Origin: Manis javanica
Lineage: Eukaryota > Chordata > Mammalia > Pholidota > Manidae
DNA length: 64,000 nt
Direction: 5' to 3'
Assembly: GCF_040802235.1 (NCBI RefSeq)
Contig: NC_133167.1
Coordinates: forward strand, 83,367,001-83,431,000
Shown one piece after another: positions 1 to 62,898 of the stretch. The position numbers were made by a program, and so were the translations under genes. The notes under the pieces were generated by a model, which saw nothing but the letters and a program-made list of their open reading frames with translations, was not told the origin of the DNA and ran no database searches. Each line of letters begins with the position of its first letter. The first letter of the stretch is position 1.

Positions 1-230
1 TATGCCTTTCTCTTAATAAAAAAAAAAAAAAAAAGCAGTTACTGTGTGCTGACCTCCAATGAGTTCTGCACAGTGGTATAGAGGGCATGTCAAAGTGTGG
101 GCAAAGGGTCTGTTTGTTTCTATGCAGAAGATCAAGGCCTAGCTTGACTACCCAGAAAATGAACTAAGATACAATATGAGGAGGAGCTTCCGGCATCAGC
201 ACTCTCTGGAGGACTCATGCTGGGGGATGA

Positions 231-725
231 TCATCAAAAAGCCTCCACAGGGATCCGGGCGATGCTGCGGTTGTGGCTGCGTCCACCCCACTGTTTCCTG
301 GACTTGCCATAGGAATGAGGAGGGAGATGTCTAGGCTGGCATGTGCATACAGTGAGACAACGAATTTGACCGGATCTGTACTGTTGGAACTCAACCAGGA
401 GTTGGGAGGGGTGCAAGTTGTAGCACTCCAAAATCTTACGACTATAGACTATCTACGGTTAGAAGAACATATGGGATGTGAACATATCCCAGAAATGGGC
501 TGCTTTAATTTGTCTGATTTCTCTGAGACTGTTCAAGTACAGTTGGACAATATCCATCATATCATAGACAAATTTTCACAAATGCCTATGGTGCCTAAAT
601 GGTTTTCTTGGCTTCACTGGAGATGGCTGGTAATTATAGATTTGCTTTGTTTATGTTACCATATTCCTATTATGTTAATATGTGTGCGCAAGTTAGTTAG
701 TAGTTTAAAACCTATACATGCTTAA
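231..725 (+). pseudogene. env: ERV env transmembrane-subunit remnant (copy 1)
   Basis: This reading frame is open from just after a stop at 228-230 to TAA at 723-725, about 164 codons. It holds the landmarks of a retroviral TM subunit in order. A hydrophobic, Ala/Gly/Leu-rich stretch resembling a fusion peptide (about 261-320) is followed by a heptad-repeat region with an LQN motif. Then comes a C-X7-C loop (cysteine codons 477-479 and 501-503, no third cysteine), a second helical segment, a Trp-rich membrane-proximal patch and a hydrophobic membrane span (about 612-700) with a short tail. The loop without a CC and the downstream LTR start fit class II (betaretrovirus-like) ERVs. There is no surface subunit, signal peptide or upstream viral gene, so this is a fragment carried as L1 cargo. 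Confidence 0.75.
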
Positions 726-1356
726 GGTACTCTACAAGAAGATGTGTCAAAGAAATATTCAATCCTCCCATGTTTTCTTCCATATGCTACCTCTACAGCT
801 TTTCTTCTTCCTTCCTAGTTACAACCCTTAAATAGAATTCTTGCCTCATATCGAATTTACCGAGTATCATAATTCCTCCAGGTGGTAAAGCTCGAGACAA
901 GTGCTGGGCATAGAAGCCACAGGGCATAAATATGCAAAGAAGTAAAAAGCTAACCTTTTCAAACAATATGGCTTCTCTCTCACTTACCAACTTTACATTT
1001 CCCTGTATGGCCCCGGAAGATGACTGGTTAGCCAGAGACCGGTAAGATTCCTCAAGGGAGGAACAACCTAAGACAGGCACAGTCGCAGGGGTGCCATCAG
1101 GTGAGAAATTGGGGATCAACAGAGGTGAGGCTTAGAACCTCAAACCCCACCCCCACCCCCATTTTGAGAGAAATCTTCTGCATCCGTGGATGTTTTATTG
1201 CCCTTGTCTAGCTTGGATTAACACATAGTCTACAGGCACACACCTGATCATCTGATCATCTACATTTGCTCTCTTACAACACTAAACTATGTTTTCTACC
1301 TTTATCTTTCATCTACCTACCACCTCAGCATTTTATTTTAAAAAAATAGTAATAAT

Positions 1357-1367
1357 AAAGGGAGAAA
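1357..1367 (+). other. Retroviral polypurine tract (copy 1)
   Basis: The purine run AAAGGGAGAAA lies immediately before TGTGGGA. This is the expected polypurine tract/LTR junction that primes plus-strand synthesis in retroviruses. It is 0.63 kb after the env stop. It supports identifying the downstream block as a 3' LTR. Confidence 0.75.
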
Positions 1368-1697
1368 TGTGGGATTCACATATAAATCAAGTATAAAAAT
1401 CAAACAAATATTCATATTTGACCTGATTGTTTATAGTTCATAATGAGTGATAAGTGATCAAAACCGAAAGTTTTTGTGATGACTGCCCTTGTACTGTTCA
1501 CCATGTAAGAACTTATTCACTGTGTAAGAATTTGTTCACCATGTAAGAACTTGTTCGTTATGCTTCAGAAGATTGGAGACTGATGAGAATTAGGCTGGGG
1601 GTGGATTAATGATTGTGCGTTGAGCATTGACTCCCCTATACAGAATTTTATTGTTGTTAACAACCATTTGATCAATAAATATGAGAGATGCCCTCTC
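1368..1697 (+). repeat. ERV 3' LTR, U3-R part (copy 1)
   Basis: The LTR starts with TGTGGGA after the polypurine tract and stops 18 bases past AATAAA (1674-1679), where the (AAAT)n tail begins. No U5 follows, which is what a processed, polyadenylated transcript ending at the LTR cleavage site would leave. The segment contains short direct repeats of a CATGTAAGAACTT-like unit (about 1500-1560). The LTR poly(A) signal apparently serves as the 3' end signal of the chimeric L1. Confidence 0.75.
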
Positions 1698-1700
1698 AAA

Positions 1701-1747
<47 letters not shown>

Positions 1748-1749
1748 AA
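1698..1749 (+). repeat. (AAAT)n microsatellite, former poly(A) tail
   Basis: About twelve AAAT units directly follow the LTR cleavage position. Such simple repeats commonly grow from L1 poly(A) tails. Confidence 0.9.
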
Positions 1750-20906: not shown

Positions 20907-20924
20907 CTTTTTTTTTTTTTTTTT

Positions 20925-22564
20925 GAGAGGGCATCTCTCATATTTATTGATCAAATGGTTGTTAACAACAATAAAATTCAGTATAGGGGGGTCAATGCTC
21001 AATGTACAATCATTAATCCATCTCAAGCCTAATTCTCGTCAGTCTCCAATCTTCTGAAGCATAACGAACAAGTTCTTACATGGTGAACGAATTCTTACAT
21101 AGTGAATAAATTCTTACATGGTGAACAGTACAAGGGCATTCATCACAGAAACTTTCGGTTTTGATCATGCAATATGACCTATAAACCATCAGGTCAAATA
21201 TGAATATTCATTTGATTTTTGTACTTGATTTATATGTTGATCCCACATTTCTCCTATTATTATTATTATTTTTATTTTTAATAAAATGCTGAAGTGGTAG
21301 GTAGATGCAAGATAAAGGTAGAAAACATAGTTTAGTGCTGTAAGAAGGCAAATGTAGATGATCAGATGATCAGGTGTGTGCCTATGGACTAAGTATTAAT
21401 CCAGGCTAGACAAGGGCAGCAAGGCATCCACGGATGCAGAAGATTTCTCTCAAAGCAGGGGGGGTGAGGTTCTGAGCCTCACCTCTGTTGATCCCCAAAT
21501 TCTCACCTGATGGCCCCCCTGCGACTGTACCTGTCTTAGGTTGTTCCTCCCTTGAGGAATCTTACCCGTCTCTGGCTAACCAGTCATCTTCCGGGGCCAT
21601 ACAGGGAAATGTAAAGTTGGTAAGTGAGAGAGAAGCCATATTGTTTGCAAAGGTTAGCTTTTTACTTCTTTGCAGATTTATGCCCTGTGGCTTCTATGCC
21701 CAGCACTTGTCTCGAGGTATCTTTACCACCTGGAGGAATTATGATACTCGGTAAATTCGATATGAGGCACGAATTCTATTTAAGGTTTGTAATTAGGAAG
21801 GAAGAAGAAAAGCTATAGATGTAGCATATGAAGGAAACTTGGGAGGATTGATTATTTCTTTGACATATCTTCTTGTATAGTACCTTAAGTATGTATAGGT
21901 TTTAAACTACTAACTAATTTGCACACACATATTAACATAATAGGAATACGGTGACATAAACAAAGCAAATCTATAATTACCAGCCATCTCCAGTGAAGCC
22001 AAGAAAACCATTTAGGCACCCTAGGCATTTGTGAAAATTTATCTATGATATGATGGATATTTTCCAACTGTACTTGAACCATCAGACAAATTAAAGCAGC
22101 CCATTTCTGGGATCTGTTCACATCCCATATGTTCTTTTAACCATAGATAGTCTATAGTCATGAGATTTTGGGGTGCTACAACTTGCACCCCTCCCAACTC
22201 CTGGTTGAGTTCCAACAGTACAGATCCAGTCAAATTCGTTGTCTCACTGTATGCACATGCCAGCCTAGACATCTCCCTCCTCCTTCTTATGGCAAGTCCA
22301 GGAGACGGTGGGCTGGATGCAGCCACAACCGCAGCATCGTCCGGATCCCTGTGGAGGCTTTTTGATGATCATCCCCCGGCACGAGTCCTCCAGAGAGTGC
22401 TGATGCCGGAAGCTCCTCCTCATATCGTATCTTAGTTCATTTTCTGGGTATCCAAGCTAGGCCTTGATCTTCTGCGTAGAAACAAACAGACCCTTTGCCC
22501 ACACTTTGACATGCCCTCTATACCACTGTGCAGAACTCATTGGAGGTCAGCACACAGTAACTGC
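20925..22564 (-). repeat. ERV-derived 3' cargo of copy 2 (env TM + LTR)
   Basis: Collinear with 35-1697 of copy 1. The LTR lies at 20925-21247 (starts TGTGGGA on the - strand), the polypurine tract at about 21248-21256, and the env remnant at about 21885-22330. Relative to copy 1 an 11-base deletion after the C-x7-C loop (near 22078) shifts the env frame. The env piece is therefore split into two overlapping open segments (22039-22326 and 21885-22121) and has no coding value. Confidence 0.85.
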
Positions 22565-22587
22565 TTTTTTTTTTTTTTTTTTTTTTT
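22565..22587 (-). other. Internal poly(A) tract at the L1/ERV junction (copy 2)
   Basis: A run of 23 T on + (A in L1 sense) separates the L1 3'UTR from the ERV cargo. It marks the native L1 end, as expected for 3' transduction past the L1's own poly(A) tail. Confidence 0.85.
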
Positions 22588-23101
22588 ATTAAGAGAAAGG
22601 AATATTATCAGAAAAGAGTACCTCCATAGCTGATCATCTGACACCCTTTAAGTGATCAACATTAAGGATATTTAAAGCATGCGTTGATCTTTGATTTACC
22701 AATAGTTTTATCCTGTTAAGGAGTAATCCCCCTTTTCTTTCTTTCTTTCTTTTTTTTTTTAAATTTTTAATCTACACTTACCTAAAGAATACTATGTTTA
22801 CTATGCTCTCCCCTATATCAGGTCCCCCCTAACAACCACATTACGGTTACTGTCCATCAGCTTAGCAAAATGTTGTAGAGTCACTACTTGTCCTCTCTGT
22901 GTTGTGCAGCCCACCCTCCCCTTTCTCCCTCCCCCCATGCATGCTAATCTTAATACCCCCCTTCTTCTTCCCCCCCCTTATCCCTCGCTGCCCACCCATC
23001 CTCCCCAGTTCCTTTCCCTTTGGTACCTGTTAGTGCATTTTTGGGTTCTGTAATTCTGCTGCTGTTTTGTTCCTTCAGTTTTTCCTTTGTTCCTATACTC
23101 C
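22588..23101 (-). repeat. L1 3'UTR of copy 2
   Basis: In L1 sense it starts after the ORF2 stop and contains a G-rich polypurine tract (complement of 22910-22985) with several runs of three or more G, typical of mammalian L1 3'UTRs and able in principle to form a G-quadruplex. It ends in an AT-rich stretch before the internal poly(A). Confidence 0.8.
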
Positions 23102-26100
23102 TCAGATGAGTGAAATCATTTGGTATTTCTCTTTCTCCGCTTGGCTTATTTCACTGAGCATAATACTCTCCAGCTCCATCCATGTTGCTGCAAATGGTTG
23201 GATTTTTCCACTTCTTATGGCTGAGTAGTATTCCATTGTGTATATGTACCACATCTTCTTTATCCATTCATCTACCGATGGACATTTAGGGTGCTTCCAA
23301 TTCTTGGCTATTGTAAATAGTGCTGCGATAAACATAGGAGTGCATCTGTCTTTCTCAAACTTGATTGCTGCGTTCTTAGGGTAAATTCCTAGGAGTGGAA
23401 TTCCTGGGTCAAATGGTAGGTCTGTTTTGAGCATTTTGATGCACCTCCATACTGCTTTCCACAATGGTTGAACTAATTTACATTCCCACCAGCAGTGTAG
23501 GAGGGTTCCCCTTTCTCCACAGCCTCGCCAACATTTGTTGTTGTTTGTCTTTTGGATGGCAGCTATCCTTACTGGTGTGAGGTGATACCTCATTGTAGTT
23601 TTAATTTGCATTTCTCTGATAATTAGCGATGTGGAGCATCTTTTCATGTGTCTCTTGGCCATCTGTATTTCTTTTTTGGAGAACTGTCTGTTCAGTTCCT
23701 CTGCCCATTTTTTAATTGGGTTATTTGTTTTTTGTTTGTTGAGGCGTGTGAGCTCTTTATATATTCTGGACGTCAAGCCTTTATCAGATCTGTCATTTTC
23801 AAATATATTCTCCCATACTGTAGGGTTCCTTTTTGTTCTATTGATGGTGTCTTTCGCTGTACAGAAGCTTTTCAGCTTAATGTAGTCCCACTTGCTCATT
23901 TTTGCTGTTGTTTTCCTTGCCCAGGGAGATATGTTCAAGAAGAGATCACTCATGTTTATGTCTAAGAGGTTTTTGCCTATGTTTTTTTCCAAGAGTTTAA
24001 TGGTTTCATGACTTACATTCAGGTCTTTGATCCATTTTGAGTTTACCTTTGTATATGGGGTTAGACAATGGTCCAGTTTCATTCTCCTACATGTAGCTGT
24101 CCAGTTTTGCCAGCACCATCTGTTGAAGAGACTGTCATTTTGCCATTGTATGTCCATGGCTCCTTTATCAAATATTAATTGACCATATATGTTTGGGTTA
24201 ATTTCTGGGGTCTCTAATCTGTTCCACTGGTCTGTGGCTCTGTTCTTGTGCCAGTACCAAATTGTCTTGATTACTATGGCTTTGTAGTAGAGCTTGAAGT
24301 TGGGGAGTGAGATCCCCCCTACTTTATTCTTCTTTTTCAGGATTGCTTTGGCTATTCGGGGTCTTTGGTGTTTCCATATGGATTTTTGAATTATTTCTTC
24401 CAATTCATTGAAGAATGTTTCTGGTAATTTGAGAGGGATTGCATCAAATTTGTATATTGCTTTAGGCAGGATGGCCATTTTGACGATATTAATTATTCCT
24501 AGCCATGAGCATGGAATGAGTTTCCATTTATTAGTGTCCCCTTTAATTTCTCTTAAGAGTGACTTGTAGTTTTCAGAGTATAAGTCTTTCACTTCCTTGG
24601 TTAGGTTTATTCCTAGGTATTTTATTCTTTTTGATGCAATGGTGAATGGAATTGTTTTCCTGATTTCTCTTTCTATTGATTCGTTGTTAGTGTATAGGAA
24701 AGCTACAGATTTCTGTGTGTTGATTTTGTATCCTGCAACTTTGCTGTATTCCGATATCAGTCCTAGTAGTTTTGGAGTGGAGTCTTTAGGGTTTTTTATG
24801 TACAGTATCATATCATCTGCAAATAGTGACAGTTTAACTTCTTCTTTACCAATCTGGATTCCTTGTATTTCTTTGTTTTGTCTGATTGCCGTGGCTAGGA
24901 CCTCCAGTACTATGTTAAATAACAGTGGGGAGAGTGGGCATCCCTGTCTGGTTCCCGATCTCAGTGGAAATGCTTTCAGCTTCTCGCTGTTCAGTATAAT
25001 GCTGGCTGTGGGTTTATCATATATGGCCTTTATTATGTTGAGGTACTTGCCCTCTATTCCCATTTTGCTGAGAGTTTTTATCATGAATGGATGTTGAATT
25101 TTGTCAAATGCTTTTTCAGCATCTATGGAGATGATCATGTGGTTTTTGTCTTTCTTTTTGTTGATGTGGTGGATGATGTTGATGGATTTTCGAATGTTGT
25201 ACCATCCTTGCATCCCTGGGATGAACCCCACTTGGTCATGGTGTATGATCCTTTTGATATACTGTTGAATTCTGTTTGCTAATATTTTATTGAGTATTTT
25301 TGCATCTACATTCATCAGGGATATTGGTCTGTAATTTTCTTTTTTGGTGAGGTCTTTTCCTGGTTTTGGTATTAGGGTGATGTTGGCTTCATAGAATGAG
25401 TTTGGGAGTATTCCCTCTTCTTCTATTTTGTGGAACACTTTAAGGAGAATGGGTATTATGTCTTCTCTGTGTGTCTGATAAAATTCCGAGGTAAATCCGT
25501 CCGGCCCCGGGGTTTTGTTCTTGGGTAGTTTTTTGATTACTGTTTCAATTTCTTTGCTTGTAATTGGTTTGTTTAACTTTTGTGTTTCTTCCTTGGTCAG
25601 TCTTGGGAGGTTGTATTTTTCTAGGAAGTTGTCCATTTCTTCTAGGTTTTCCAGCTTGTTGGCATATAGGTTTTCATAGTAGTCTTTAATAATTCTTTGT
25701 ATTTCTGTGGAGTCTGTCGTGATTTTTCCATTCTCATTTCTGATTATGTTGATTTGTGTTGACTCTCTTTTTCTCTTAATAAGTTGGGCTAGAGGCTTAT
25801 CTATTTTGTTTATATTCTCAAAGAACCAGCTCTTGGTTTCGTTGATTTTTGCTATTGTTTTATTCTTCTCAATTTTGTTTATTTCTTCTCTGATCTTTAT
25901 TATGTCCCTCCTTCTGCTGACTTTAGGCCTCATTTGTTCTTCTTTTTCCAGTTTTAATAATTGTGATGTTAGACTATTCATTTGGGATTGTTCTTCCTTC
26001 TTCAAGTGTGCCTGGATTGCTATATACTTTCCTCTTAAGACTGCTTTTGCTGCATCCCACAGAAGTTGGGGCTTAGTGTTGTTGTTGTCATTTGTTTCTA

Positions 26101-26944
26101 TATATTCCTTGATCTCTATTTTGATTTGTTCATTGATCCATTGATTATTTAGTAGCATGTTGTTAAGCCTCCATGTGTTTGTGAGCCTTTTTGTTTTCTT
26201 TGTAGAATTTATTTCTACTTTCATACCTTTGTGGTCTGAAAAATTGGTTGGTAGAATTTCAATATTGTGGAATTTACTGAGGCTCTTTCTGTGAGCTAGT
26301 ATGTGGTCTATTCTGGAGAATGTTCCATGTGCACTTGAGAAGAATGTATATCCTGTTGCTTTTGGATGTAAAGTTCTATAGATGTCTATTAGGTCCATCT
26401 GTTCTAGTGTGTTGTTCAGTGCCTGTGTGTCTTTACTTATTTTCTGCCCGGTGGATCTATCCTTTGGGGTGAGTGGTGTGTTGAAGTCTCCTACAATGAA
26501 TGCATTGCAGTCTATTTCCCTCTTTAGTTCTGTTAGTATCTGCTTCACATATGCTGGTGCTCCTGTATTGGGTGCATATATATTTAGAATGGTTATATCC
26601 TCTTGTTGGACTGAGCCCTTTATCATTATGTAGTGGCCTTCTTTATCTCTTGTTACTTTCTTTGTTTTGAAGTCTATTTTGTCTGATATTAGTACTGCAA
26701 CCCCTGCTTTCTTCTCACTGTCGTTTGCCTGAAATATGTTTTTCCATCCCTTGACTTTTAGTCTATGCTTATCTTTGGGTTTAAGGTGAGTTTCTTGTAA
26801 GCAGCATATAGATGGGTCTTGCTTTTTTATCCATTCTATTACTCTATGTCTTTTGATTGGTGCATTAAGTCCATTTACATTTAGGGTGACTATTGAAAGA
26901 TATGTACTTATTGCCATTGCAGGCTTTAGATTCGTGGTTACCAA
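23102..26944 (-). CDS. ORF2: L1 ORF2 protein, intact: endonuclease and reverse transcriptase
   Basis: 1280 codons, close to the usual 1275. The N-terminal apurinic-type endonuclease (about residues 15-245) keeps the catalytic landmarks LNVNGLN (Asn22), QET (Glu51), GDFN, and SDH near residue 238. The reverse transcriptase has the FADD box at residues 708-711 (24812-24823). The C-terminal Cys-rich segment [18 protein letters not shown] is intact. ORF2p nicks target DNA and copies L1 RNA at the nick (target-primed reverse transcription). The start follows the ORF1 stop by 168 bases, and translation in L1s is by reinitiation. No stop or frameshift is present, in contrast to copy 3. Confidence 0.97.
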
Positions 26945-27112
26945 AGGTTCAAGGTTAGCTTCTTTAGTATCTTACTGCCTAATTTAGCTCGCTTATTGAG
27001 CTGTTATATACACTGTCTGGAGATTCTTTTCTTCTCTCCCTTCTTATTCCTCCTCCTCCATTCTTCATATGTTGTGTGTTTTGTTCTGTGCTCTTTTTAG
27101 GGGTGCTCCCAT

Positions 27113-28003
27113 CTAGAGCAGTCCCTGTAGGATGCCCTGTAGAGGTGGTTTGTGGGAAGCAAATTCCCTCAGCTTTTGCTTGTCTGGGAATTGTTTGATC
27201 CCACCATCATATTTAAATGATAGTCGTGGTGGATACAGTATCCTTGGTTCAAGGCCCTTCTGTTTCATTGCATTAAATATATCATGCCATTCTCTTCTGG
27301 CCTGTAGGGTTTCTGTTGAGAAGTCTGATGTTAGCCTGATTGGTTTTCCTTTATAGGTGACCTTTTTCTCTCTAGCTGCCTTTAAAACTCTTTCCTTGTC
27401 CTTGATCCTTGCCATTTTAATTATTATGTGTCTTGGTGTTGTCCTCCTTGGATCCTTTGTGTTGGGGGTTCTGTATAATTCCATGGTCTGTTCGATTATT
27501 TCCTCCCCCCGTTTGGGGAAGTTTTCAGCAATTATTTCTTCAAAGACACTTTCTATCCCTTTTCCTCTTTCTTCCTCTTCTGGTATCCCTATAATACGAA
27601 TGTTTTTCCTTTTGTATTGGTCACATATTTCTCTTAGTGTTGTTTCATTCCTGGAGATCCTTTTATCTCTCTCTATGTCAGCTTCTATACGTTCCTGTTC
27701 TCTGGCTTCTATTCCTTCAATGGCCTCTTGCATCTTATCCATTCTGCTTATAAATCCTTCCAGGGATTGTTTCACTTCTGTGATCTCTTTCCTGACATCT
27801 GTGATCTCCTTCCGGACTTCATCCCACTGCTCTTGCATTTTTCTCTGCATCTCATCCCATTGCTCTTGCATTTTTTTCTGCATCTCTGTCAGCATGTTCA
27901 TGATTTTTATTTTGAATTCTTTTTCAGGAGGACTAGTTAGGTCTGTCTCCTTCTCAGGTGTTGTCTCTGTGATCTTTGTCTGCCTGTAGTTTTGCCTTTT
28001 CAT
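27113..28003 (-). CDS. ORF1: L1 ORF1 protein, intact RNA-binding chaperone
   Basis: 296 codons with the three expected parts: a basic N-terminus and coiled coil (about residues 30-120), an RRM-like domain (NIRIIGIPEEEERGKG) and the C-terminal domain with ARREWHDIF, ILYPPRLSFKY and FPDKQKLREF. ORF1p trimerises through the coiled coil and coats L1 RNA. The coiled coil contains an 11-residue tandem duplication of the QEQWDEM unit (27819-27884) that copy 3 lacks. The frame is complete. Confidence 0.95.
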   Translation of the reverse strand: MKRQNYRQTKITETTPEKETDLTSPPEKEFKIKIMNMLTEMQKKMQEQWDEMQRKMQEQWDEVRKEITDVRKEITEVKQSLEGFISRMDKMQEAIEGIEAREQERIEADIERDKRISRNETTLREICDQYKRKNIRIIGIPEEEERGKGIESVFEEIIAENFPKRGEEIIEQTMELYRTPNTKDPRRTTPRHIIIKMARIKDKERVLKAAREKKVTYKGKPIRLTSDFSTETLQARREWHDIFNAMKQKGLEPRILYPPRLSFKYDGGIKQFPDKQKLREFASHKPPLQGILQGLL

Positions 28004-29612
28004 GGTGATAGAGATAGTTTGCAGAGCTGGTACAAGTGACCGCTGGAAGAGCTTCCCTTCTTGTTGGTTTGTAGCCTTTTCCTGGGAGAATAGCGACCTC
28101 TAGTGGCTTGTGCTGGGCAGCTGTGCGCAGACAGGGCTTCTGCTTCCTGCCCAGTTGCTTTGGGGTTTATCTCCGCTGTTGCTGTGGGCTTGGCCTGGCT
28201 GGGGCTGTTCCTCCAAAATGGTGGAGCCCCGTTGGAGGGGGAGCAGCCAGGAGACTATTTATCTCCGTAAGGGGCCTCTGTGCTCCCTGCTGCCCAGGGG
28301 GTTAGAGTGCCCAGAGATCCCCAGATTCCCTGCCTCTGGTCTAAGTGACCTGTCCTGCCCCTTTAAGATTTCCAAAAAGCACTCTCCAAACCAAAACAAC
28401 AACAGCAACAATGAGAGAGGGAACAGAAAGAAAGAGAAAAAAAAAAAAGGAAAAAACAAGCGATTTTTTTTTTTTTTTTTTTGTCCTGAGGTGCCGGTCC
28501 CAGGCACCCGCTCACTGGTCCTGCTGCCCTGTCTCCCTAGCACCAGGGTCCCTGTCCTTTCAAGGCTTCCAAAAAGCACCCACCCACCGGTCCCGCAGGG
28601 AAGGAACGCTCGATATTCTTTTTCCTCAGGCACTGGTCCCAGGCACCCGCTCACCAGTCCCGCCGCCCTGCCTCCCTAGCACCGGGGTCCCTGTCCCTTC
28701 AAGGCTTCCAAAAAGCACTCGGCAAAAAGAGAGAAAAAAAGGGGAAAAACGCGCGATTTCTTCCGTCCTCAGGTGCTGGTCTCAGGCACCCACCCACCGG
28801 TCCCACAGGGAAAAATGCGGGATAGTCTTTGTCCTCAGGTGCCGGTCCCAGGCACCCGCTCACCAGTCCCGCCGCCCTGCCTCCCTAGCACCGGGGTCCC
28901 TGTCCCTTTTAGGCTTCCAAAAAGCACTCGCAGAAAAGAGAAAAAAAAAAGGGGAAAAACGCGTGATTTCCTCTGTCCTCAAGTGCCGGTCTCAGGCACC
29001 TGCCCACCGGTCCCGCAGGGAAAAACGGGGGATATTCTTTGTCCTCAGGCGCCGGTCCCAGCCACCCGCTCACCAGTCCCGCCACCGTGCCTCCCTAGCA
29101 CTGGGGTCCCCGTCCCTTCAAGGCTTCCAAAAAGCGCTCGCCAAAAAGAGGAAAAAAAAAAAAAAGGGAAAAACGCGCGACCTCCTCCGTCCTCAGGCAC
29201 CGGTCTCAGGCACCCGCCCGCCGGTCTCGCAGGGAGAAACGCGGGATATTCTTTGTCCTCCGGCGCCGTTCCCAGGCACCTCCTCACCGGTCCCGCCACC
29301 CTGCCTCCCCAGCAACGGGGGCCCGTCCCTCTAAGGCTTCCAAAAAGCGCTCGCCAAAAAAAAAAACTGCTCCGGTTTCTCTCCACCCACCGGGAGCCGG
29401 GGGGAGGGGCGCTCAGGTCCCGCCGGGCTGGGGCTTGTATCTTACCCCCTTCACAAGGCGCTGGGTTCTTGCAGGTGTGGATGTGGTCTGGATGTTGTCC
29501 TGTGTCCTGTGGTCTCTATTTTAGGAAGATTTTTCTTTGTTATATTTTCATAGCTCTATGTGTTTTTGGGAGGAGATTTCCACTGCTCTACTCACGCCGC
29601 CATCCTGGCTCC
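28004..29612 (-). promoter_or_regulatory. L1 5'UTR promoter with tandem monomers (copy 2)
   Basis: Landmark 'tccaaaaagc' recurs on + at 28371, 28568, 28707, 28916, 29126 and 29339, giving repeat spacings of 197, 139, 209, 210 and 213. The G+C- and CpG-rich monomers resemble the repeated promoter units of rodent L1s in organisation. The extreme 5' end in L1 sense reads GGAGCCAGGATGGCGGCGTG, which contains a YY1-type ATGGCGGC core about 10 bases from the start, as in human L1. Confidence 0.85.
28345..29334 (+). other. Antisense open frame over the L1 promoter monomers
   Basis: A 329-codon open frame, antisense to the L1 5'UTR, made of Pro/Ser/Arg-rich repeats of about 70 residues because the monomers are near 210 bases. 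Two more frames over the same region are open for 189 and 310 codons. It recalls primate L1 ORF0 in position only. Low stop frequency in G+C-rich repeats is a sufficient explanation, so coding is unproven. Confidence 0.3.
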
Positions 29613-29624
29613 CTCCTTTTCTTT
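29613..29624. repeat. Target-site duplication of L1 copy 2, right
   Basis: CTCCTTTTCTTT, partner of 20895-20906. Confidence 0.75.
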
Positions 29625-30492: not shown

Positions 30493-30780
30493 TTTTAAAT
30501 TAAATTTTATTATATTTTATGGGATGTAATTGGCATATTACATTAATTTTAGGTGTACAAAATCATGATTTTATATTTGTATATGTTGTGAAAAGATCAA
30601 CCAGAATAAGTCTAGTTGGTATCCATCACCATAAATAGTTCTAAAATTTTTTCATGTGATGGGAACTTTTAAGATCTACTCAGCAACTTCCAAATATGTG
30701 ATACAGTATTATTAACTGTCATTACCATGCTATACATTACACCCCAAGGACTTACTTATTTTATAATTGGATGTTTGTAC
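30493..30780 (-). repeat. Older L1 3'UTR carried as a second 3' transduction
   Basis: This text ('tattacattaattttaggtg', 'gatcaaccagaataagtcta', 'tataattggatgtttgtac') matches a standard old mammalian L1 3'UTR read antisense and is unrelated to the chimeric lineage. It lies inside the 16-base target-site duplication, so it arrived together with copy 3, after the copy's own poly(A). The simplest reading is readthrough of a parent element that sat next to an old L1 end. Confidence 0.8.
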
Positions 30781-30792
30781 TTTTTTTTTTTT

Positions 30793-32431
30793 GAGAGAGC
30801 ATCTCTCATATTTATTGATCAAATGGTTGCTAACAACAATAAAATTCTGTATAGGGGAGTCAATGCTCAATGCACAATCATTAATCCACCCCCAGCCTAA
30901 TTCTCATCAGTCTCCAATCTTCTGAAGCATAACAAACAAGTTCTTACACGGTGAACAAATTCTTACATAGTGAATAAGTTCTTACATGGTGAACAGTACA
31001 AGGGCAGTCATCACAAAAACTTTCGGTTTTGATCACTCATTATGAACTATAAACAATCAGGTCAAATATGAATATTTGTTTGATTTTTATACTTGATTTA
31101 TATGTGAATCCCATATTTCTCCCTTTATTATTACTATTTTTTTAAAATAAAATGCTGAGGTGGTAGGTAGATGAAAGATAAAGGTAGAAAACATAGTTTA
31201 GTATTGTAAGAGAGCAAATGTAGATGATCAGGTGTGTGCCTGTAGACTATGTGTTAATCCAAGCTAGACAAGGGCAATAAAACATCCACGGATGCAGAAG
31301 ATTTCTCTCAAAACAGGGGGGTTGAGGTTCTAAGCCTCACCTCTGTTGATCCCCAATTTCTCACCTGATGGCCCCCCTGTGACTGTGCCTGTCTTAGGTT
31401 GTTCCTCCCTTGAGGAATCTTACCTGTCTCTGGCTAACCAGTCATCTTCTGGGGCCACACAGGGAAATGTAAAGTTGGTAAGTGAGAGAGAAGCCATACT
31501 GTTTGAAAAGGTTAGCTTTTTACTTCTTTGCATATTTATGCCCCGTGGCTTCTATGCCCAGCATTTGTCTTGAGGTATCTTTACCACTTGGAGGAATTAT
31601 GATACTCGGTGAATTCGATATGAGGCATGAATTCTTTTTAAGGGTTGTAATTAGGAAGGAAGAAGAAAAGCTATAGAGGTAGCAGATGGAAGAAAACATG
31701 GGAAGATTGATTATTTCTTTGACATATCTTCTTGTAGAGTAACTTAAGCATGTATAGGTTTTAAACTACTAATTAAATTGCACACACACATTAACATAAT
31801 AGGAATACAGTTGCATAACCAAAGCAGATCTATAATTACCAGCTATCTCCAGTGAAGCCAAGAAAACCAGTTAGGCACCCTAGGCATTTGTGAAAATTTG
31901 TCTATGATATGATGGATATTGTCCAACTGTACTTGAACAGTCTGAGAGAAATCAGACAAATTAAAACAACCCATTCCTGGGAACTGTTCACATCCCATAT
32001 GTTCTTTTAACAGTAGATAGTTTGTAGTTGTAAGATTTTAGAGGACTACAACTTGCACTTCTCCTAATTCTTGGTTGAGTTCCAACAGTATAGATCCAGT
32101 CAAATTTGTTGTTTTACTGAAAGCACAGGCCAGCTTAGACATCTCCTTCATTCCAATGGCAAGTCCAGGAACTGGTGGGATGAATGCAGCTACAAATGCT
32201 GCATCACTTGGATCTTTGTTGAGTTTTTTTGATGATCATCTTTTGGTATGACTCTTACAGAGAGTGCTGATGTTGGAAGTTCTTCTTCATATCATATCTT
32301 AGTTCATTTTCTGGGTAGCCAAATTAGGCTTTGATCCTCTGTATAAACACAAACAGACCTTTTGCCCACACTTTGATATGCCCTTTATACCATTGTGTAG
32401 AACTCATTGGAGGTCACCACACAGGAACTGC
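30793..32431 (-). repeat. ERV-derived 3' cargo of copy 3
   Basis: Same blocks as in copy 1: LTR 30793 to about 31114 (its first bases now TATGGG), polypurine tract next to it, env TM remnant about 31750-32250. It keeps the segment deleted in copies 2 and 4 (here 'acagtctgagagaaatcag' near 31937), but substitutions have closed the env frame. Confidence 0.85.
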
Positions 32432-32440
32432 TTTTTTTTT
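32432..32440 (-). other. Internal poly(A) tract at the L1/ERV junction (copy 3)
   Basis: Nine T on +, shortened compared with copies 2 and 4, at exactly the homologous junction. Confidence 0.8.
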
Positions 32441-32936
32441 AAGAGAAAGGAATATTATCAGAAAAGTGTACTTCCATAGCCAATCATCTAACACCTTTTA
32501 AGTGATCAAAATTAAGGATATTTAAAGCATGCATCAATCATTGATTTACAGTTAGTTTTATCCTATCAGGGAGTAATCCCCCTTCTCTTTCTTTTTTTTT
32601 TGTTATCTTTAATCTACATTTACATGAAGAATATTATGTTTACTAGGCTCTCCCCTATACCAGGTCCCCCCTATAAACCCTTTTACAGTCACTGTCCATC
32701 AGCACAGCAAAATGTTGTAGAATCACTCCTTGTCCTCTCTGTGTTGTACAGCCCTCCCTCCCCTTTCTCCCACCCTCTCCATGCATGCTAATCTTAATAC
32801 CCCTCTTCTTCTTCCCCCCTCCCTACCCACCCATCCTCCCCAGTCCCTTTCCCTTTGGCACCTGTTAGTCCATTCTTGGGTTCTGTGATTCCGCTGCTGT
32901 TTTGTTCCTTCAGTTTTTCCTTTGTTCTTATACTCC

Positions 32937-35900
32937 TCAGATGAGTGAAATCATTTGGTATTTCTCTTTCTCCGCTTGGCTTATTTCACTGAGCATAATA
33001 CCCTCCAGCTCCATCCATATTGCTGCAAATGGTAGGATTTGCCCTCTTCTTATGGCTGACTAGTATTCCATTGTGTATATGTACCACATCTTCTTTATCC
33101 ATTCATCTACTGATGGACATTTAGGTTGCTTCCAATTCTTGGCTATTGTAAATAGTGCTGCAATAAACATAGGGGTGCATCTGTCTTTCTCAAACTTGAT
33201 TGCTGTGTTCTTAGGGTAAATTCCTAGGAGTGAAATTCCTGGGTCAAATGGTAAGTCTGTTTTGAGCATTTTGATGAACCTCCAAACTGCTTTCCACAAT
33301 GGTTGAACTAATTTACATTCCCACCAGCAGTGTAGGAGGGTTCCCCTTTCTCCACAGCCTCGCCAACATTTGTTGTTGTTTGTCTTTTGGATGGCAGCTA
33401 TCCTTACTGGTGTGAGGTGATACCTCATTGTAGTTTTATTTTGCATTTATCTGATAATTAGTGATGTGGAGCATCTTTTCATGTGTCTGCTGGATATCTG
33501 TATTTCTTTTTTGGAGAACTGTCTGTTCAGTTCCTCTGCCCATTTTTTAATTGGATTATTTGATTTTTGTTTGTTGAGGCGTGTGAGTTCTTTATATATT
33601 TTGGACGTCAGGCCTTTATTGGATCTGTCATTTACAAATATATTCTCCCATACTGTAGGGTTTCTTTTTGTTCTATTGATGGTGTCTTTCGCTGTACAGA
33701 AGCTTTTCAGCTTAATGTAGTCCCACTTGCTCATTTTTGCTGTTGTTTTCCTTGCCCAGGGAGATATGTTCAAGAAGAGGTCACTCATGTTTATGTCTAA
33801 GAGGTTTTTGCCTATGTTTTTTTCCATGAGTTTAATGGTTTCATGACTTACATTCAGGTCTTTGATCCATTTTGAATTTACTTTTGTATATGGGGTTTGA
33901 CAATGGTCCAGTTTCATTCTCCTACATGTAGCTGTCCAGTATTGCCAGCACCATCTGTTGAAGAGACTGTCATTTCGCCATTGTATGTCCATGGCTCCTT
34001 TATCAAATATTAATTGACCATATATGTTTGGGTTAATGTCTGGAGTCTCTAATCTGTTCCACTGGTCTGTGGCTCTGTTCTTGTGCCAGTACCAAATTGT
34101 CTTGATTACTATGGCTTTATAGTAGAGCTTGAAGTCGGGGAGTGAGATCCCCCCTACTTTACTCTTCTTTCTCAGAATTGCTTTGGCTATTTGGGGTCTT
34201 TGGTGTTTCCATATGAATTTTTGAATTACTTGTTCCAGTTCATTGAAGAATGTTGCTGGTAATTTGATAGGGATTGCATCAAATCTGTATATTGCTTTGG
34301 GCACAATGGCCATTTTGATGATATTGATTCTTCCTAGCCATGAGCATGGGATGAGTTTCCATTTGTTAGTGTCCCCTTTAATTTCTCTTAAGAGTGACTT
34401 GTAGATTTTGGAGTATAGGTCATTCACTTCCTTGGTTAGATTTATTCCTAGGTATTTTATTCTTTTTGATGCAATTATGAATGGAATTGTTTTCCTGATT
34501 TCTCTTTCTATTGGTTCATTGTTAGTGTATAGGAAAGCTACAGATTTCAGTGTGTTAATTTTGTATCCTGCAACTTTGCTGTATTCCAATATCAGTTCTA
34601 GTAGTTTTGGGGTGGAGTCTTCAGGGGTTTTTATGTACAATATCATGTCATGTGCAAATAGTGACAGTTTAACTTCTTCTTTACCAATTTGGATTCCTTG
34701 TATTTCTTTGTTTTGTCTGATTGCTGTGGCTAGGACCTCCAGTACTATGTTAAATAACAGTGGGGAGAGTGGGCATCCCTGTCTTGTTCCCGATCTCAGA
34801 GGAAATGCTTTAAGCTTCTCGCTTGTTCAGTATAATGCTGGCTGTGGGTTTATCATATATGGCCTTTATTATGTTGAGGTACTTGCCCTCTATTCCCATT
34901 TTGCTGAGAGTTTTTATCATGAATGGATGTTGAATTTTGTCAAATGCTTTTTCAGCATCTATGGAGATGATCATGTGGTTTTTGTCTTTCTTTTTGTTGA
35001 TGTGGTGGATGATGTTGTGGATTTTCGAATGTTGTACCATCCTTGCATCCCTGGGATGAAACCCACTTGGTCATGGTGTATGATCCTTTTGATATACTGT
35101 TGAATTCTGTTTGCTAATATTTTATTGAGTATTTTTGCATCTACATTCATCAGGGATATTGGTCTGTAATTTTCTTTTTTGGTGGGGTCTTTGCCTGGTT
35201 TTGGTATTAGGGTGATGTTGGCTTCATAGAATGAGTTTGGGAGTATTCAGTCATCTTTTATTTTTTGGAAAACTTTAAGGAGAATGGGTATTATGTCTTC
35301 TCTATGTGTCTGATAAAATTCCAAGGTAAATCCGTCCAGCCTGGGTGCTTTGTTCTTTGGTAGTTTTTTGATTACCGTTTCAGTTTCTTTCCTCGTCATT
35401 GGTTTGTTTTACTTTTGTGTTTCTTCCTTGGTCAGTCTTGGGAGGTTGTATTTTTCTAGGAAGTTGTCCATTTCTTCTAGGTTTTCCAGCTTGTTGGCAT
35501 ATAGGTTTTCATAGTAGTCTTTAATAATTCTTTGTATTTCTGTGGAGTCTGTCGTGATTTTTCCATTCTCATTTCTGATTATGTTGATTTGTGTTGATTC
35601 TCTTTTTCTCTTAATAAGTTGGGCTAGAGGCTTATCTATTTTGTTTATATTCTCAAAGAACCAGCTCTTGGTTTCATTGATTTTTGCTATTGTTTTATTC
35701 TTCTCAATTTTGTTTATTTCTTCTCTGATCTTTATTATGTCCCTCCTTCTGCTGACTTTAGGCCTCATTTGTTCTTCTTTTTCCAGTTTTAATAATTGTG
35801 ATGTTAGACTATTCATTTGGGATTGTTCTTCCTTCTTCAAGTGTGCCTGGATTGCTATATACTTTCCTCTTAAGACTGCTTTTGCTGCATCCCACAGAAG

Positions 35901-36779
35901 TTGGGGCTTAGTGTTGTTGTTGTCATTTGTTTCTATATATTCCTTGATCTCTATTTTGATTTGTTCATTGATCCATTGATTATTTAGTAGCATGTTGTTA
36001 AGCCTCCATGTGTTTGTGAGCCTTTTTGTTTTCTTTGTAGAATTTATTTCTACTTTTATACCTTTGTGATCTGAAAAATTGGTTGGTAGAATTTCAATAT
36101 TTTGGATTTTGCTGAGGCTCTCTTTGTGGGCTAGTATGTGGTCTATTCTGGAGAATGTTCCATGTGCACTTGAGAAGAATGTATATCCTGTTGCTTTTGG
36201 ATGTAGAGTTCTATAGATGTCTATTAGGTCCATCTGCTCTGCTGTGTTGTTCAGTGCTTCCGTGTCCTTACTTATTTTCTGCCCGGTGGATCTATCTTTT
36301 GGGGTGAGTGGTGTGTTGAAGTCTCCCAAAATGAATGCATTGCAGTCTATTTCCCCCTTTAGTTCTGTTAGTATTTGTTTCACATATGCTGGTGCTCCTG
36401 TGTTGGGTGCATATATATTTAGAATGGTTATATCCTCTTGTTGGACTGAGCCCTTTATCATTATGTAGTGTCCTTCTTTATCTCTTGTTACTTTCTTTGT
36501 TTTGAAGTCTATTTTATCTGATATTAGTACTGCAACCCCTGCTTTCTTCTCACTGTTGTTTGCCTGAAATATGTTTTTCCATCCCTTGACTTTTAGTCTG
36601 TGCATGTCTTTGGGTTTGAGGTGAGTTTCTTGTAAGCAGCATATAGATGGGTCTCGCTTTTTTATCCATTCTATTACTCTGTGTCTTTTGATTGGTGCAT
36701 TCAGTCCATTTACATTTACGGTGACTATTGAAAGATATGTACTTATTGACATTGCAGGCTTTAGATTCGTGGTTACCAA
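32937..36779 (-). pseudogene. ORF2: L1 ORF2 of copy 3, inactivated
   Basis: Collinear with the intact ORF2 of copy 2. It opens with 456 intact codons (endonuclease complete), then TAA at 35406-35408 replaces a Leu codon. A one-base deletion near 35015 and a one-base insertion near 34822 shift the frame in between. In the reverse transcriptase box the first catalytic Asp is His (FAHD, codon 34650-34652). Further stops replace Glu at 33447-33449 and Tyr near 33057. It cannot supply enzymes. Confidence 0.92.
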
Positions 36780-36947
36780 AGGTTCAAGGTTAACCTCTTT
36801 GGTATCTTACTGCCTAACTTAGCTTGCTTGTTGAGCTGTTATATACACTGTCTGGAGATTCTTTTCTTCTCTCCCTTCTTATTCCTCCTCTTCCATTCTT
36901 CATATGTTGGGTGTTTTGTTCTGTGCTCTTTCTAGGAGTGCTCCCAT

Positions 36948-37802
36948 CTAGAGCAGTCCCTGTAAGATGCCCTGTAGAGGTGGTTTGTGGGAAGCAAATT
37001 CCCTCAGCTTTTGCTTGTCTGGGAATTGTGTAATTCCACCATCATATTTAAATGATAGTCGTGCTGGATACAGTATCCTTGGTTCAAGGCCCTTCTGTTT
37101 CATTGCATTAAATATATCATGCCATTCTCTTCTGGCCTGTAGGGTTTCTGTTGAGAAGTCTGATGTTAGCCTGATGGGTTTTCCTTTATAGGTGACCTTT
37201 TTCTCTCTAGGTGCCTTCAAAACTCTTTCCTTGTCCTTGTTCTCAGCCATTTAAATTATTATGTGTCTTGGTGTTGTCCTCCTTGGATCCTTTCTGTTGG
37301 GGGTTCTGTGTATTTCCATGATCTGTTCGATTATTTCCTCCCCCAGTTTGGGGAAGTTTTCAGCAATTATTTCTTCCGAGTTACTTTCTGTCCCTTTTCC
37401 TCTCTCCTCTTCTTCTGGTACCCCTATAATATGGATATTGTTCCTTCTGGATTGGTCACACAGTTCTCTTAATATTGTTTCTTTCCTGGAGATCCTTTTA
37501 TCTCTCTCTATGTCAGCTTCTATGCGTTCCTGTTCTCTGGTTTCAATTCCATCAATGGCCTCTTGCATCTTATCCATTCTCCTTATAAATCCTTCCAGAG
37601 TTTGTTTCATTTCTGTAATCTCCTTCCTGGCATCTGTGATCTCCCTCCGGACTTCATCCCATTTCTCTTGAATATTTCTCTGCATCCCTGTCAGCATGTT
37701 TATGATTTTTATTTTGAATTCTTTGTCAGGAAGACTGGTTAGGTCTGTCTCCTTCTCTGGTGTCTCTGTGATCTTGGTTTGCCTGTAATTTTGTCTTTTC
37801 AT
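36948..37802 (-). pseudogene. ORF1: L1 ORF1 of copy 3, nonsense at codon 184
   Basis: The N-terminal 183 codons are open (coiled coil with a single QEKWDEV unit, RRM with HIIGVPEEEERGKG). Then Lys (AAA) is TAA at 37248-37250, followed in the same frame by the C-terminal domain (ARREWHDIF, FPDKQKLREF). A single substitution ended the protein inside the RNA-binding region. Confidence 0.92.
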
Positions 37803-39113
37803 GGTGATAGGAATAGTTTGCAGTGCTGGGACTAGTGACGGCTGGAAGAACTTCCCTTCTTTTTGGTTTGTGGCCTTCCTCTCCTGGGAGAAGAGCGACC
37901 TCTAGTGGCTTGTGCTGAGTAGCTTTGCGCAGACAGGGCTTCTGCTTCCTGCCCGGCTGCTATGAAGTTTATCTCTGCTGTTGCTGTGGGCGTGGCCTGG
38001 CTAGGGCTGCTGCTCCAAAGTGGTGAATTTGCATTGGGGGGGGAGCAGCTGGAAGGCTATTTATCTCTGTAAGTGGCCTCCGTGCTCCCTACAGCCCAGG
38101 GGATTAGAGTACCCAGAGATCCCTGGATTCCCTACCTCTGGACTAAGTGTCCCGCCCTGCCCTTTTAAGACTTCCAAAAAGCACCCGCCAAAACAAAACA
38201 ACTACCACAAAAAAAAAAAAATTGCTGCTCGTTTTTCTTTATTCTCCGGTGCCAGCCACGGGCACCTGCTCACTGGTCTTGCTGCCCTGTTTCCTTAGTA
38301 TTGGGGTCCCTATCCCTTTAAGACTTCCAAAAAGCACTTGCCAAAACAAAACAACAACAAAAAAAAGATGGCCGCTCACTTTTCTTTTGTTCTCCAGCGC
38401 CGGCCTCCGATACCTGCTCACTGGTCTTGCTGCCCTGTTTCCCTAGTTTTGGGGTCCCTGTCCCTTTAAGACTTCCAAAAAGCACTTGCCACAACAAAAC
38501 AACAACAACAACAAAAAAAAAAAAGGTGGCCACTCGCTTTTCTTTTGTTCTCCAGCTTTGGTCTCCGATAACCGCTCGCCGGTCTTGCTGCCCTGTTTCC
38601 CTAGTATTGGGGTCCCTGTCCCTTTAAGACTTCCAAAAAGCACTCACCACAACAAAACAACAACAACAACAACAACAAAAAGATGACTGCTCGCTTTTCT
38701 TTTGTCCTCCGGCGCTGGCCTCCGGTTCCCGCTCACCATTCTTGCTGCCCTGTTTCCCTTGGATGCAGGGTCCCGTGCATGCACTGTGTCTGTGCTCTGG
38801 TCCGGATGGCTGGGGCTGGGTGTTTAGCAGTCCTGGGCTCCTTCTCCCTCCCGCTCTGACTCCTCTACTCCTGCCAGGAGCTGGGGGAGGGGCACTCAGG
38901 ATCCCCCAGGCCGGGGTTTGTATCTTACCCCCTTTGCGAGGTGCTGGGTTCTTGCATGTGTGGATGTGGTCTGGACGTTGTCCTGTGTCCTCTGGTCTTT
39001 TTTCTAGGAAGAGTTGTCTTTGTTATATTTTCATAGATATATATGGTTTTGGGAGGAGATTTCCACTGCTCTACTCACGCTGCCATCTTGGCTCCCAGCC
39101 AAGACCTAGTCCC
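37803..39113 (-). promoter_or_regulatory. L1 5'UTR promoter with shorter monomers (copy 3)
   Basis: The landmark 'tccaaaaagc' recurs at 38173, 38326, 38474 and 38632 (spacings 153, 148, 158). Each unit has an A-rich (CAA)n linker where copy 2 has G+C-rich text. The L1-sense 5' end contains AAGATGGCAGC, a YY1-like core as in copy 2. The units lack the extra block of about 60 bases that brings copy 2 monomers to 210. Confidence 0.85.
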
Positions 39114-61018: not shown

Positions 61019-61240
61019 TTTTTTTTAAAATTATTTTTTATTGAAGGGTAGTTGACACACAGTGTTACATTAGTTTCAGGTGTACAACACAGTGATTCAA
61101 CATTTATATACATGATAATTCTAGCTACCAGCTATCACCATACAAAGTTGTTACAATATTTTTTTTTAATTAAAAATTAAAAATTTATTTTCAATGTGGT
61201 AAAACATATATAATATAAAATTTCCCTTTTTTTTTTTGAT
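61019..61240 (-). repeat. Old L1 3'UTR fragments, antisense
   Basis: 'ttattgaagggtagttgacacac' and 'agtttcaggtgtacaacacagtgattcaac' are a standard antisense L1 3'UTR with its poly(T) at 61020-61027. A second piece ('atgtggtaaaacatatataatataaaatttccc') resembles another old L1 end. Confidence 0.7.
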
Positions 61241-61253
61241 TTTTTTTTTTTTT

Positions 61254-62898
61254 GAGAGGGCATCTCTCATATTTATTGATCAAATGGTTGTTAACAACAA
61301 TAAAATTCAGTATAGGGGGGTCAATGCTCAATGTACAATCATTAATCCATCTCAAGCCTAATTCTCGTCAGTCTCCAATCTTCTGAAGCGTAACGAACAA
61401 GTTCTTACATGGTGAACGAATTCTTACGTAGTGAATAAATTCTTACATGGTGAACAGTACAAGGGCATTCATCACAGAAACTTTCGGTTTTAATCACGCA
61501 TTATGACCCATAAACAATCAGGTCAAATATGAATATTCATTTGATTTTTGTACTTGATTTATATGTTGATCCCACATTTCTCCCTCTATTATTATTATTA
61601 TTTTTATTTTTAATAAAATGCTGAAGTGGTAGGTAGATGCAAGACAAAGGTAGAAAACATAGTTTAGTGCTGTAAGAGGGCAAATGTAGATGATCAGATG
61701 ATCAGGTGTGTGCCTATGGACTAAGTATTAATCCAGGCTAGACAAGGGCAGCAAGACATCCACGGATGCAGAAGATTTCTCTCAAAGCAGGGGGGGTGAG
61801 GTTCTGAGCCTCACCTCTGTTGATCCCCAAATTCTCACCTGATGGCCCCCATGCGACTGTGCCTGTCTTAGGTTGTTCCTCCCTTGAGGAATCTTACCCG
61901 TCTCTGGCTAACCAGCCATCTTCTGGGGCCATACAGGGAAATGTAAAGTTGGTAAGTGAGAGAGAAGCCATATTGTTTGAAAAGGTTAGTTTTTTACTTC
62001 ATTGCAGATTTATGCCCTGTGGCTTCTATGCCCAGCACTTGTCTCGAGGTATCTTTACCACCTGGAGGAATTATCATACTCGGTAAATTCGATATGAGGC
62101 ACGAATTCTATTTAAGGGTTGTAATTAGGAAGGAAAAAGAAAAGCTATAGAGGTAGCATATGGAAGGAAACATGGGAGGATTGATTATTTCTTTGACATA
62201 TCTTCTTGTAGAGTACCTTAAGTATGTATAGGTTTTAAACTACTAACTAATTTGCACACACATATTAACATAATAGGAATACGGTGACATAAACAAAGCA
62301 AATCTATAATTACCATCCATCTCCAGTGAAGCCAAAAAAACCATTTAGGCACCCTAGGCATTTGCGAAAATTTATCTATGATATGATGGATATTGTCCAA
62401 CTGTACTTGAACAATCAGACAAATTAAAGCAGCCCATTTCTGGGATCTGTTCACATCCCATATGTTCTTTTAACCGTAGATAGTCTATAGTCATGAGATT
62501 TTGGAGTGCTACAACTTGCACCCCTCCCAACTCCTGGTTGAGTTCCAACAGTACAGATCCGGTCAAATTCGTTGTCTCACTGTATGCACATGCCAGCCTA
62601 GACATCTCCCTCCTCATTCCTATGGCAAGTCCAGGAGACGGTGGGCTGGATGCAGCCACAACTGCAGCATCGTCCGGATCCCTGTGGAGGCTTTTTGATA
62701 ATCATCCCCCTGGCACAAGTCCTCCAGAGAGTGCTGATGCCGGAAGCTCCTCCTCATATCGTATCTTAGTTCATTTTCTGGGTATCCAAGCTAGGCCTTG
62801 ATCTTCTGCATAGAAACAAACAGACCCTTTGCCCACACTTTGACATGCCCTCTATACCACTGTGCAGAACTCATTGGAGGTCAGCACACAGTAACTGC
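61254..62898 (-). repeat. ERV-derived 3' cargo of copy 4
   Basis: LTR 61254-61576 (TGTGGGA start on -), polypurine tract about 61577-61587, env TM remnant about 62218-62659 split by the 11-base deletion into two overlapping open pieces. Nearly base-for-base with copy 2 by eye. Confidence 0.87.

Follow-up and report, generated by a model that had tools for sequence, protein, structure and literature searches.

Several L1 copies lie in the window, a 64,000-nucleotide stretch of Manis javanica DNA, and all four of them (c1 to c4) carry the same 1.64 kb retroviral block on the 3' side of an internal A-tract. The locus raises the question of whether this block is a fixed part of the L1, copied with it, or a sequence that lies beside it for other reasons. 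The four copies are as follows.

20907..29612, minus strand: c2, full-length L1 with a composite 3' end (from blast and target-site duplications, TSDs)
1..1749, plus strand: c1, incomplete because the window begins within it; its block spans 35-1697
30493..39113, minus strand: c3, older, reading frames disrupted; block at 30793-32431; TSDs at 30477-30492 and 39114-39129
61236..64000, minus strand: c4, incomplete because the window stops within it; its block spans 61254-62898

The composite element in the window

A blast search of the block against the window returned these four copies, of which the other three were 97.5, 92.3 and 88.4% identical to that of c2. All four have CCTTTCTCTTAA(TA)-A(n)-GCAGTT at the junction and AATAAATATGAGAGATGCYCTCTC-A(n) at the 3' end, which bore out the original observation that every L1 of this family in the window has the same block. 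The parts of the element, on c2 unless stated, are listed below.

28004..29612, minus strand: 5' UTR, with 210-bp tandem units at 28576-29360
27113..28003, minus strand: ORF1, open, 296 aa (PF02994, PF17490)
23102..26944, minus strand: ORF2, open, 1280 aa, listed from TTG (endonuclease PF03372, reverse transcriptase PF00078)
22767..23101, minus strand: L1 3' UTR to the end point of older copies (GTAGATTAA); A-rich tract 1 follows at ~22733-22766
22591..22732, minus strand: module T1 of 142 nt, lying 3' of the older L1 end and 5' of A-tract 2
22565..22590, minus strand: A-tract 2 (AATAAA-A(n)), site of the common junction, from the sequence
20925..22564, minus strand: retroviral block, 1,640 nt (blast, shared junction and end)
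22440..22517, minus strand: probable remnant of an integrase C-terminal domain (PF00552 is matched sub-threshold by related pieces)
22090..22564, minus strand: part of the block with an A-to-G cluster, relative to c3-like older copies
20925..21247, minus strand: LTR, starting at TGTGGGA and ending at its poly(A) site, with a purine tract just upstream and AATAAA 18 nt before the end
20908..20924, minus strand: terminal poly(A), from the sequence
273..725, plus strand, in c1: Env transmembrane (TM) remnant, 150-aa open frame (PDB matches)

The L1 body of c2 has the hallmarks of LINE-1. Pfam matches above the cut-off were found in both ORF1 (the RRM-like and C-terminal domains) and ORF2 (endonuclease and reverse transcriptase), and poly(A) tails, TSDs and 5' truncation were all observed among the copies. 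Between c2 and c3 the dN/dS was 0.26 for ORF2 and 0.36 for ORF1, and the former value shows that ORF2 was under constraint while the block was aboard. Three older L1 copies in fetched loci, two at L047 and one at L070, lack T1 and end in an A-tract about 170 nt upstream of A-tract 2. Hence, the 142-nt T1 separates the older L1 end from the block, and the A-tract that precedes the block, first taken for the native poly(A) of the L1, is not where the older L1 ended.

The TSDs were checked for c2 and c3, since c1 and c4 end at the window edges. The c2 element is flanked by AAAGAAAAGGAG at 20895-20906 and 29613-29624, and c3 by AAAACTCAAAGATTCA at 30477-30492 and 39114-39129, in agreement with the two clear duplications reported earlier. 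Clear TSDs were also found in four of six 5'-truncated copies, the remaining two having 7-nt TSD-like matches only. Within its TSDs c3 has 288 nt more (30493-30780) past the LTR poly(A); 267 of these, used as a query against the fetched loci, gave one weak 66-nt match and no other. The order of L1, A-tract, non-L1 flank and second poly(A) within TSDs, with a junction common to the members, is the layout of an L1 3' transduction. The addition of about a quarter that had been attributed to the block is approached when it is set against the rest of the element (~23%), while its 1,640 nt are 19% of the whole 8,705 nt. Rfam and ARAGORN scans of the 64-kb window gave no matches.

The block was confirmed to contain an env TM remnant, then a purine tract, then an LTR that stops at its poly(A) site. 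The TM remnant resembles that of avian alpharetroviruses, and its matches in the PDB were the ASLV fusion TM structures 4jpr (E 1.2e-8) and 5h9c (E 1.3e-8); a Pfam search with it gave no match. The c2 counterpart of the c1 frame, at ~21890-22300, is frameshifted. The start of the block matched the integrase C-terminal domain IN_DBD_C below threshold (E 0.058 and 0.12), and PDB searches with block-start pieces gave no match; as judged from sequence, the block probably starts in integrase. Scans of viral contig and genome contig collections found no match to the block sequence.

Linkage of the L1 and the block across the genome

Exact words from both sides of the block were searched in the 2.56 Gb pangolin assembly. 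A 30-mer at the LTR end occurred at 18,530 places, with none for a reversed-pattern control, and a 17-mer on the L1 side at 11,658. Many sampled places lie in duplicated segments, and therefore the independent insertions are fewer than the places. Among the first 30 LTR ends listed, all on one contig (C1), the distinct tails point to about 19-20 independent insertions. An A-rich tail followed the LTR end in all 30 (two were CA/A-rich) and in all 40 best genome hits. No further LTR sequence (U5), into which a provirus or solo LTR continues, was found past the poly(A) site in either set. The L1-side junction was present at all 20 of the 30 places for which more upstream DNA was available, and in 37 of the 40 best hits junction and LTR end fell within one alignment.

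In the L1-to-block direction we followed the exact L1-side word along C1 from 0.35 to 12.48 Mb, where it marks 81 ends in succession. For 53 of these an exact LTR end lay 1.1-2.3 kb downstream, at a spacing of 1,606-1,662 nt in 51; the other 28 were all fetched, and in each the sequence enters the block directly. Thus 81 of 81 were joined to the block, by pairing or by reading. None of the 81 ended at the internal A-tract, and among the sampled copies no L1 carried T1 alone, without the block. The cargo search against the assembly that had been called for was thereby carried out in large part, and with these counts, the A-rich tails and the TSDs around the whole, it supported the view that the chimera itself is the amplifying unit and a stable module of a proliferating lineage. 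Copies ~99-100% identical to c2 occur on several contigs. The L1 family with the retroviral 3' end is large and recently active, and has been copied thousands of times.

If the block were instead a stand-alone ERV piece that happened to lie beside L1s, or an assembly artefact, neither the constant spacing nor an A-rich tail in place of U5 in 30 of 30 ends would be expected, and the TSDs would not enclose L1 and block together. These observations refute such chance neighbours for the sampled places; nothing was found in favour of this explanation, and we give it practically no weight.

In the reverse direction, 43 of 100 exact LTR ends had no exact 17-mer upstream. Five of these 43 are among the first 30 ends (L042, L059, L068, L047 and L070): in L042, L059 and L068 the insertion starts within the block, and in L047 the junction is present with the 17-mer altered. 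Block-only insertions (L039, L040, L042, L059 and L068) could suggest that the block is an independent element of the SVA or SINE type, mobilized in trans by the L1 machinery and frequently located next to L1. The exact LTR ends do outnumber the L1-side ends, although the 30-mer and the 17-mer differ in length and decay, so that their counts are not strictly comparable. However, the block-only copies start at varying query positions (1753, 1868, 1840 and 2484), which fits 5' truncation, and save for the near-copies L059 and L068 no common 5' end was found among those sampled. A separate element is thus very improbable.

Origin of the retroviral 3' end

The retroviral piece was acquired long ago by the L1. 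We consider it highly probable that, after a 3' transduction, the transduced sequence was kept as the fixed 3' end of an autonomous L1 lineage that became dominant in the Manis pangolin. A founder L1 would have lain upstream of an ERV remnant in the sense orientation, the remnant being without most of SU. Its RNA would have passed the L1 end and the short flank T1 and been cleaved at the poly(A) site of the ERV LTR. Retrotransposition of this read-through RNA would then have given descendants that became a major L1 lineage. The founding event may have taken one step or two (T1, then the ERV); the LTR poly(A) signal is presumably the one used in the RNA, and the internal A-tract appears disused as an end, as suggested by the 0 of 81 sampled copies that stop there. 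Target-primed reverse transcription copies the RNA from its 3' end, so an insertion begins with the LTR end and can be truncated anywhere upstream, even in the block.

Alternatively, the founding chimera could have arisen by a template switch: the reverse transcriptase, having started to copy an ERV mRNA, would have moved over to the poly(A) tail of an L1 mRNA, and the product would then have been propagated. The position of the junction at an A-tract is what such a jump would produce, and no L1 insertion beside an ERV would be required. However, with T1 placed 3' of the older L1 end and 5' of the junction, the L1 RNA reached by the switch would have had to contain a transduction beforehand; the 288-nt extra piece within the c3 TSDs also indicates that this lineage can read through. 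We regard a template switch as unlikely.

The transduction reading can be compared with known systems. In human L1 3' transduction, as described in PMC6425141, the RNA passes the L1 poly(A) signal and ends at a downstream one, so that the flank is copied with the L1; the junction is common to the members of a family, as it is here. The largest human family given there as of 2019 has 14 members, whereas exact-word counts of the pangolin module exceed ten thousand, in old and young copies, and no sampled copy of the lineage was without the module. The SINE-R part of SVA spans env and the LTR to its poly(A) site. According to the account in PMC7353768, SVA has an ERV-derived 3' end followed by poly(A), as does the pangolin element, and is spread by L1 enzymes; but it is non-autonomous, with a 5' hexamer repeat, an Alu-like part and a VNTR, whereas the pangolin element has its own ORF1 and ORF2, both open in c2. 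In Manis pentadactyla, PMC12584738 describes ERV-Alpha-Mpen, placed between alpha- and betaretroviruses and with 19 solo LTRs; by description only, it is a pangolin ERV comparable to our block, whose TM is nearest to the ASLV TM in the PDB. The same source reports an L1 inserted in another ERV, Gamma.b9, whereas here an ERV end is carried by an L1.

Known transductions of this kind are for the most part by-products that left few descendants; in this genome a very large autonomous lineage has one as its fixed 3' end. One can therefore ask directly if an L1 gains a competitive edge from a foreign, perhaps stronger, poly(A) site. The lineage also shows that LTR sequence is able to reach very high copy number through L1 alone. 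Insertions truncated in the block have no L1 sequence, and repeat annotation may therefore score them as ERV fragments.

Relationships of the copies and the A-to-G cluster

Trees of the L1 flank and of the block were both ladder-like and agreed in outline. In the block tree the old/young label takes two changes rather than one, and many inner branches are weak. Relative to the older copies, the first ~470 nt of the block suggest a one-step, ADAR-like A-to-G change; this polarity takes the A-state copies to be the more diverged ones. The cluster sites avoid a 5' G (1/39 vs 30/114, p 0.0009). APOBEC-type G-to-A change was rejected for the cluster, as the sampled older copies have A, a 5' G is avoided and the test for an APOBEC context was not significant (p 0.24). 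Recombination between block types, for which the mosaic look of the four window copies would speak, was dropped because a ladder of A-state, G-state and later changes with a one-step A-to-G cluster is simpler for the 33 copies.

More tentatively, and with somewhat greater doubt than belief, we propose that the LTR poly(A) end became obligatory and that one copy, its RNA A-to-I hyperedited in the retroviral part before reverse transcription, gave rise to the branch that dominates at present. If true, an autonomous transposon would have gained a heritable organ through a 3' transduction, and LTR sequence would have spread to over ten thousand places with no retroviral replication involved; should the A-to-G cluster be confirmed, it would be RNA editing fixed in a transposon lineage. 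In L041 and L062 the L1 flank is more diverged than the block. L064 falls among the G-state copies in the block tree and not in the flank tree, and given this placement there may have been some exchange between block types.

Composition of the element and spread of its 3' end

The original prediction held that one composite 3' end is common to the four L1 copies in the window, and this was borne out in all four (4/4). The full-length copy, c2, lies at:

20907-29612, minus strand, full copy of the element

Its order is 5' UTR (210-bp tandem units), ORF1, ORF2, L1 3' UTR closing with the A-rich A-tract 1, module T1 (142 nt), A-tract 2, the retroviral block of 1,640 nt, poly(A) and target-site duplication (TSD). 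ORF1 and ORF2 of c2 are both open, with the domain matches expected for L1. The named proteins that match the window ORF1 best come from Manis; the first two, both of M. javanica, reach 95 and 90% across its full length. Of 1,749 matches 120 were listed, and in that list the best named one outside Manis has 61% over 75%. In the literature searched on pangolin L1s and transposable elements, L1 transductions and L1-ERV chimeras, no title or start of an abstract described this element, and an unnamed or partial repeat-library entry (e.g., in Dfam) may exist.

In the assembly (2.56 Gb, 63 contigs), where the window occupies C12:83367001-83431000, an exact 30-mer at the LTR end was found at 9,238 + 9,292 places (reversed control, 0) and an exact 17-mer at the T1 end, on the L1 side, at 5,793 + 5,865 places (control, 3). 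Among the 40 best block matches, which were those scored of 286 candidates and are biased towards c2-like copies, one alignment spans the junction in 37; in L033 both sides are present and the middle has diverged, and L039 and L040 begin within the block. All 40 have at least 8 A among the 12 nt past the LTR end.

A second sample, the first 30 LTR-end places along contig C1, was selected by the 30-mer alone. An A-rich tail follows the LTR end in 30/30, two of these being CA/A-rich. The block had been proposed to occur joined to L1 rather than free, and in this sample, which includes duplicated segments, the L1-side junction was present at all 20 places with upstream DNA fetched, and on the same contig 81/81 successive L1-side ends lead into the block. 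The ten places outside the junction count comprise three that begin within the block (L042, L059, L068), three sharing a locus with an extended one (L044, L055, L056) and four left out (L054, L067, L069, L070). The 81 ends are successive 17-mers in the part of C1 that the LTR-end list spans: 53 were paired with an exact LTR end, and the 28 unpaired ones were all fetched and all continue into the block. Conversely, no exact 17-mer lay upstream of 43 among 100 exact LTR ends, and five of these 43 were followed up.

Many tails recur on C1 (L043/L048/L053; L059/L068; L044/L054; L049/L052), and therefore the 81 or 30 places are not all independent insertions; about 19-20 distinct tails were counted among the 30. 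The recurrence at the start of C1 (0.35-12.5 Mb) suggests that the region contains segmental duplications or was assembled in duplicate. In L010, L013, L028, L044/L045, L054 and L055-L057 the LTR end is repeated in tandem two or three times at a spacing of about 0.3-0.7 kb, and an A-tract follows every repeat; reverse transcription may have slipped between the poly(A) and an A-run of the LTR.

The junction and the source of the block

The block had been thought to follow the native poly(A) of L1. The order of L1, A-tract and block stands, but T1 intervenes after the older L1 end at A-tract 1. In a survey of 61 matches to the L1 3' UTR end (window and fetched loci), T1 was present in 55 by the test used. 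Three of the six places lacking it are older L1 copies that stop at A-tract 1 (two in L047, one in L070), so the older L1 end does not include T1; the other three (L034, L046, L075) are family members in which T1 is altered or a repeat is expanded. T1 may have been transduced earlier than the block or together with it. Over 59 distinct junctions, the sequence before the block keeps AATAAA in 23, and reads AATTAA in 18, a bare A run in 13 and other sequence in 5.

In 3' transduction, the L1 poly(A) signal is bypassed and a downstream one is used instead, as PMC6425141 describes. None of the 81 successive L1-side ends on C1 has T1 without the block. Since 0/81 copies end at A-tract 2, we infer that the LTR poly(A) site would be the end used by the RNA of this family.

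The TM remnant of the block resembles the TM of ASLV (E 1.2e-8), and the 3' part consists of a purine tract, then an LTR that opens with TGTGGGA and stops at its AATAAA-bearing poly(A) site. For two related pieces of the block start, the sole Pfam match was PF00552, with E-values of 0.058 and 0.12 that fall below the cut-off; this start probably holds the end of integrase. The spacing between integrase and TM is too short for most of SU, and the block therefore probably stems from an ERV with an internal deletion. A search for proteins like the TM piece gave, among 41 candidates, 30 relatives of 82-149 aa, all on ENA contigs no longer than 3,481 bases; its length limits bar full-length Env, hence it has no bearing on free proviruses.

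Age and constraint

Between c2 and the older copy c3, ORF2 gave a dS of 0.095 and a dN of 0.025 (ratio 0.26, without gapped codons and five c3 stops), and ORF1 a dN/dS ratio of 0.36 (without two stops). These ratios were seen despite decay of c3 after insertion. Identities were 96.2% in ORF2, 92.5% in ORF1, 76.7% in the 5' UTR, 88.9% in the 3' UTR plus T1, and 87.5 and 92.2% in the block halves. The block was thus carried by working L1s through about 10% neutral divergence.

Quick trees of the L1 flank plus T1 (29 rows, 328 columns) and of the block minus its first 480 nt (33 rows) were both ladder-like and agreed in outline, with 16/26 and 12/29 inner branches, respectively, weakly supported and left open. 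The old/young label changes once on the flank tree and twice on the block tree. Other contigs hold several copies that match c2 at 99-100% identity over 1,501 nt. In L041 and L062, the L1 flank has diverged from that of the other copies far more (branch 0.18) than the block has (0.065).

The tandem repeat period of the 5' UTR is 210 bp in c2 (28576-29360) and 158 bp in c3 (38155-38759), so the promoter region changed from the older copy to the younger. c3 also carries an extra 288-nt 3' piece (30493-30780) with its own A-rich end within the TSDs, which is a second read-through event. At its other end, 17 nt (39097-39113) separate the TSD from the usual 5' start, perhaps a short 5' transduction.

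A cluster of A-to-G differences

When c3 was compared with c1, c2 and c4 over the first 480 nt of the block, 39 A-to-G sites and 2 in reverse were found; T-to-C, counted over a slightly longer stretch, numbered 9. The cluster is located at:

22090-22564 (c2 coordinates), A-to-G cluster, with homologous parts in 33 copies

The asymmetry starts at the junction and stops near 22090. An A-to-G excess was also seen in the 5' UTR repeats, but the alignment there pairs unequal repeat arrays. Over the 33 copies the sites are bimodal, with 28-39 A in nine copies, 31-39 G in 24 and no intermediates (7-8 sites are missing in L067, L069 and L070); as the sites were picked on c1-c4, the pattern is tested by the other 29 rows only, some of them near-copies. 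The state at these sites divides older from younger copies in a single step, and the change is strand-asymmetric.

A 5' G is scarce at the A-to-G sites (1/39, against 30/114 unchanged A; p 0.0009), and a 3' G is frequent (15/39 against 18/114). ADAR enzymes have neighbour preferences, on which the likening of this context to ADAR is based. The cluster would fit one ADAR-type editing event on the sense RNA before reverse transcription.
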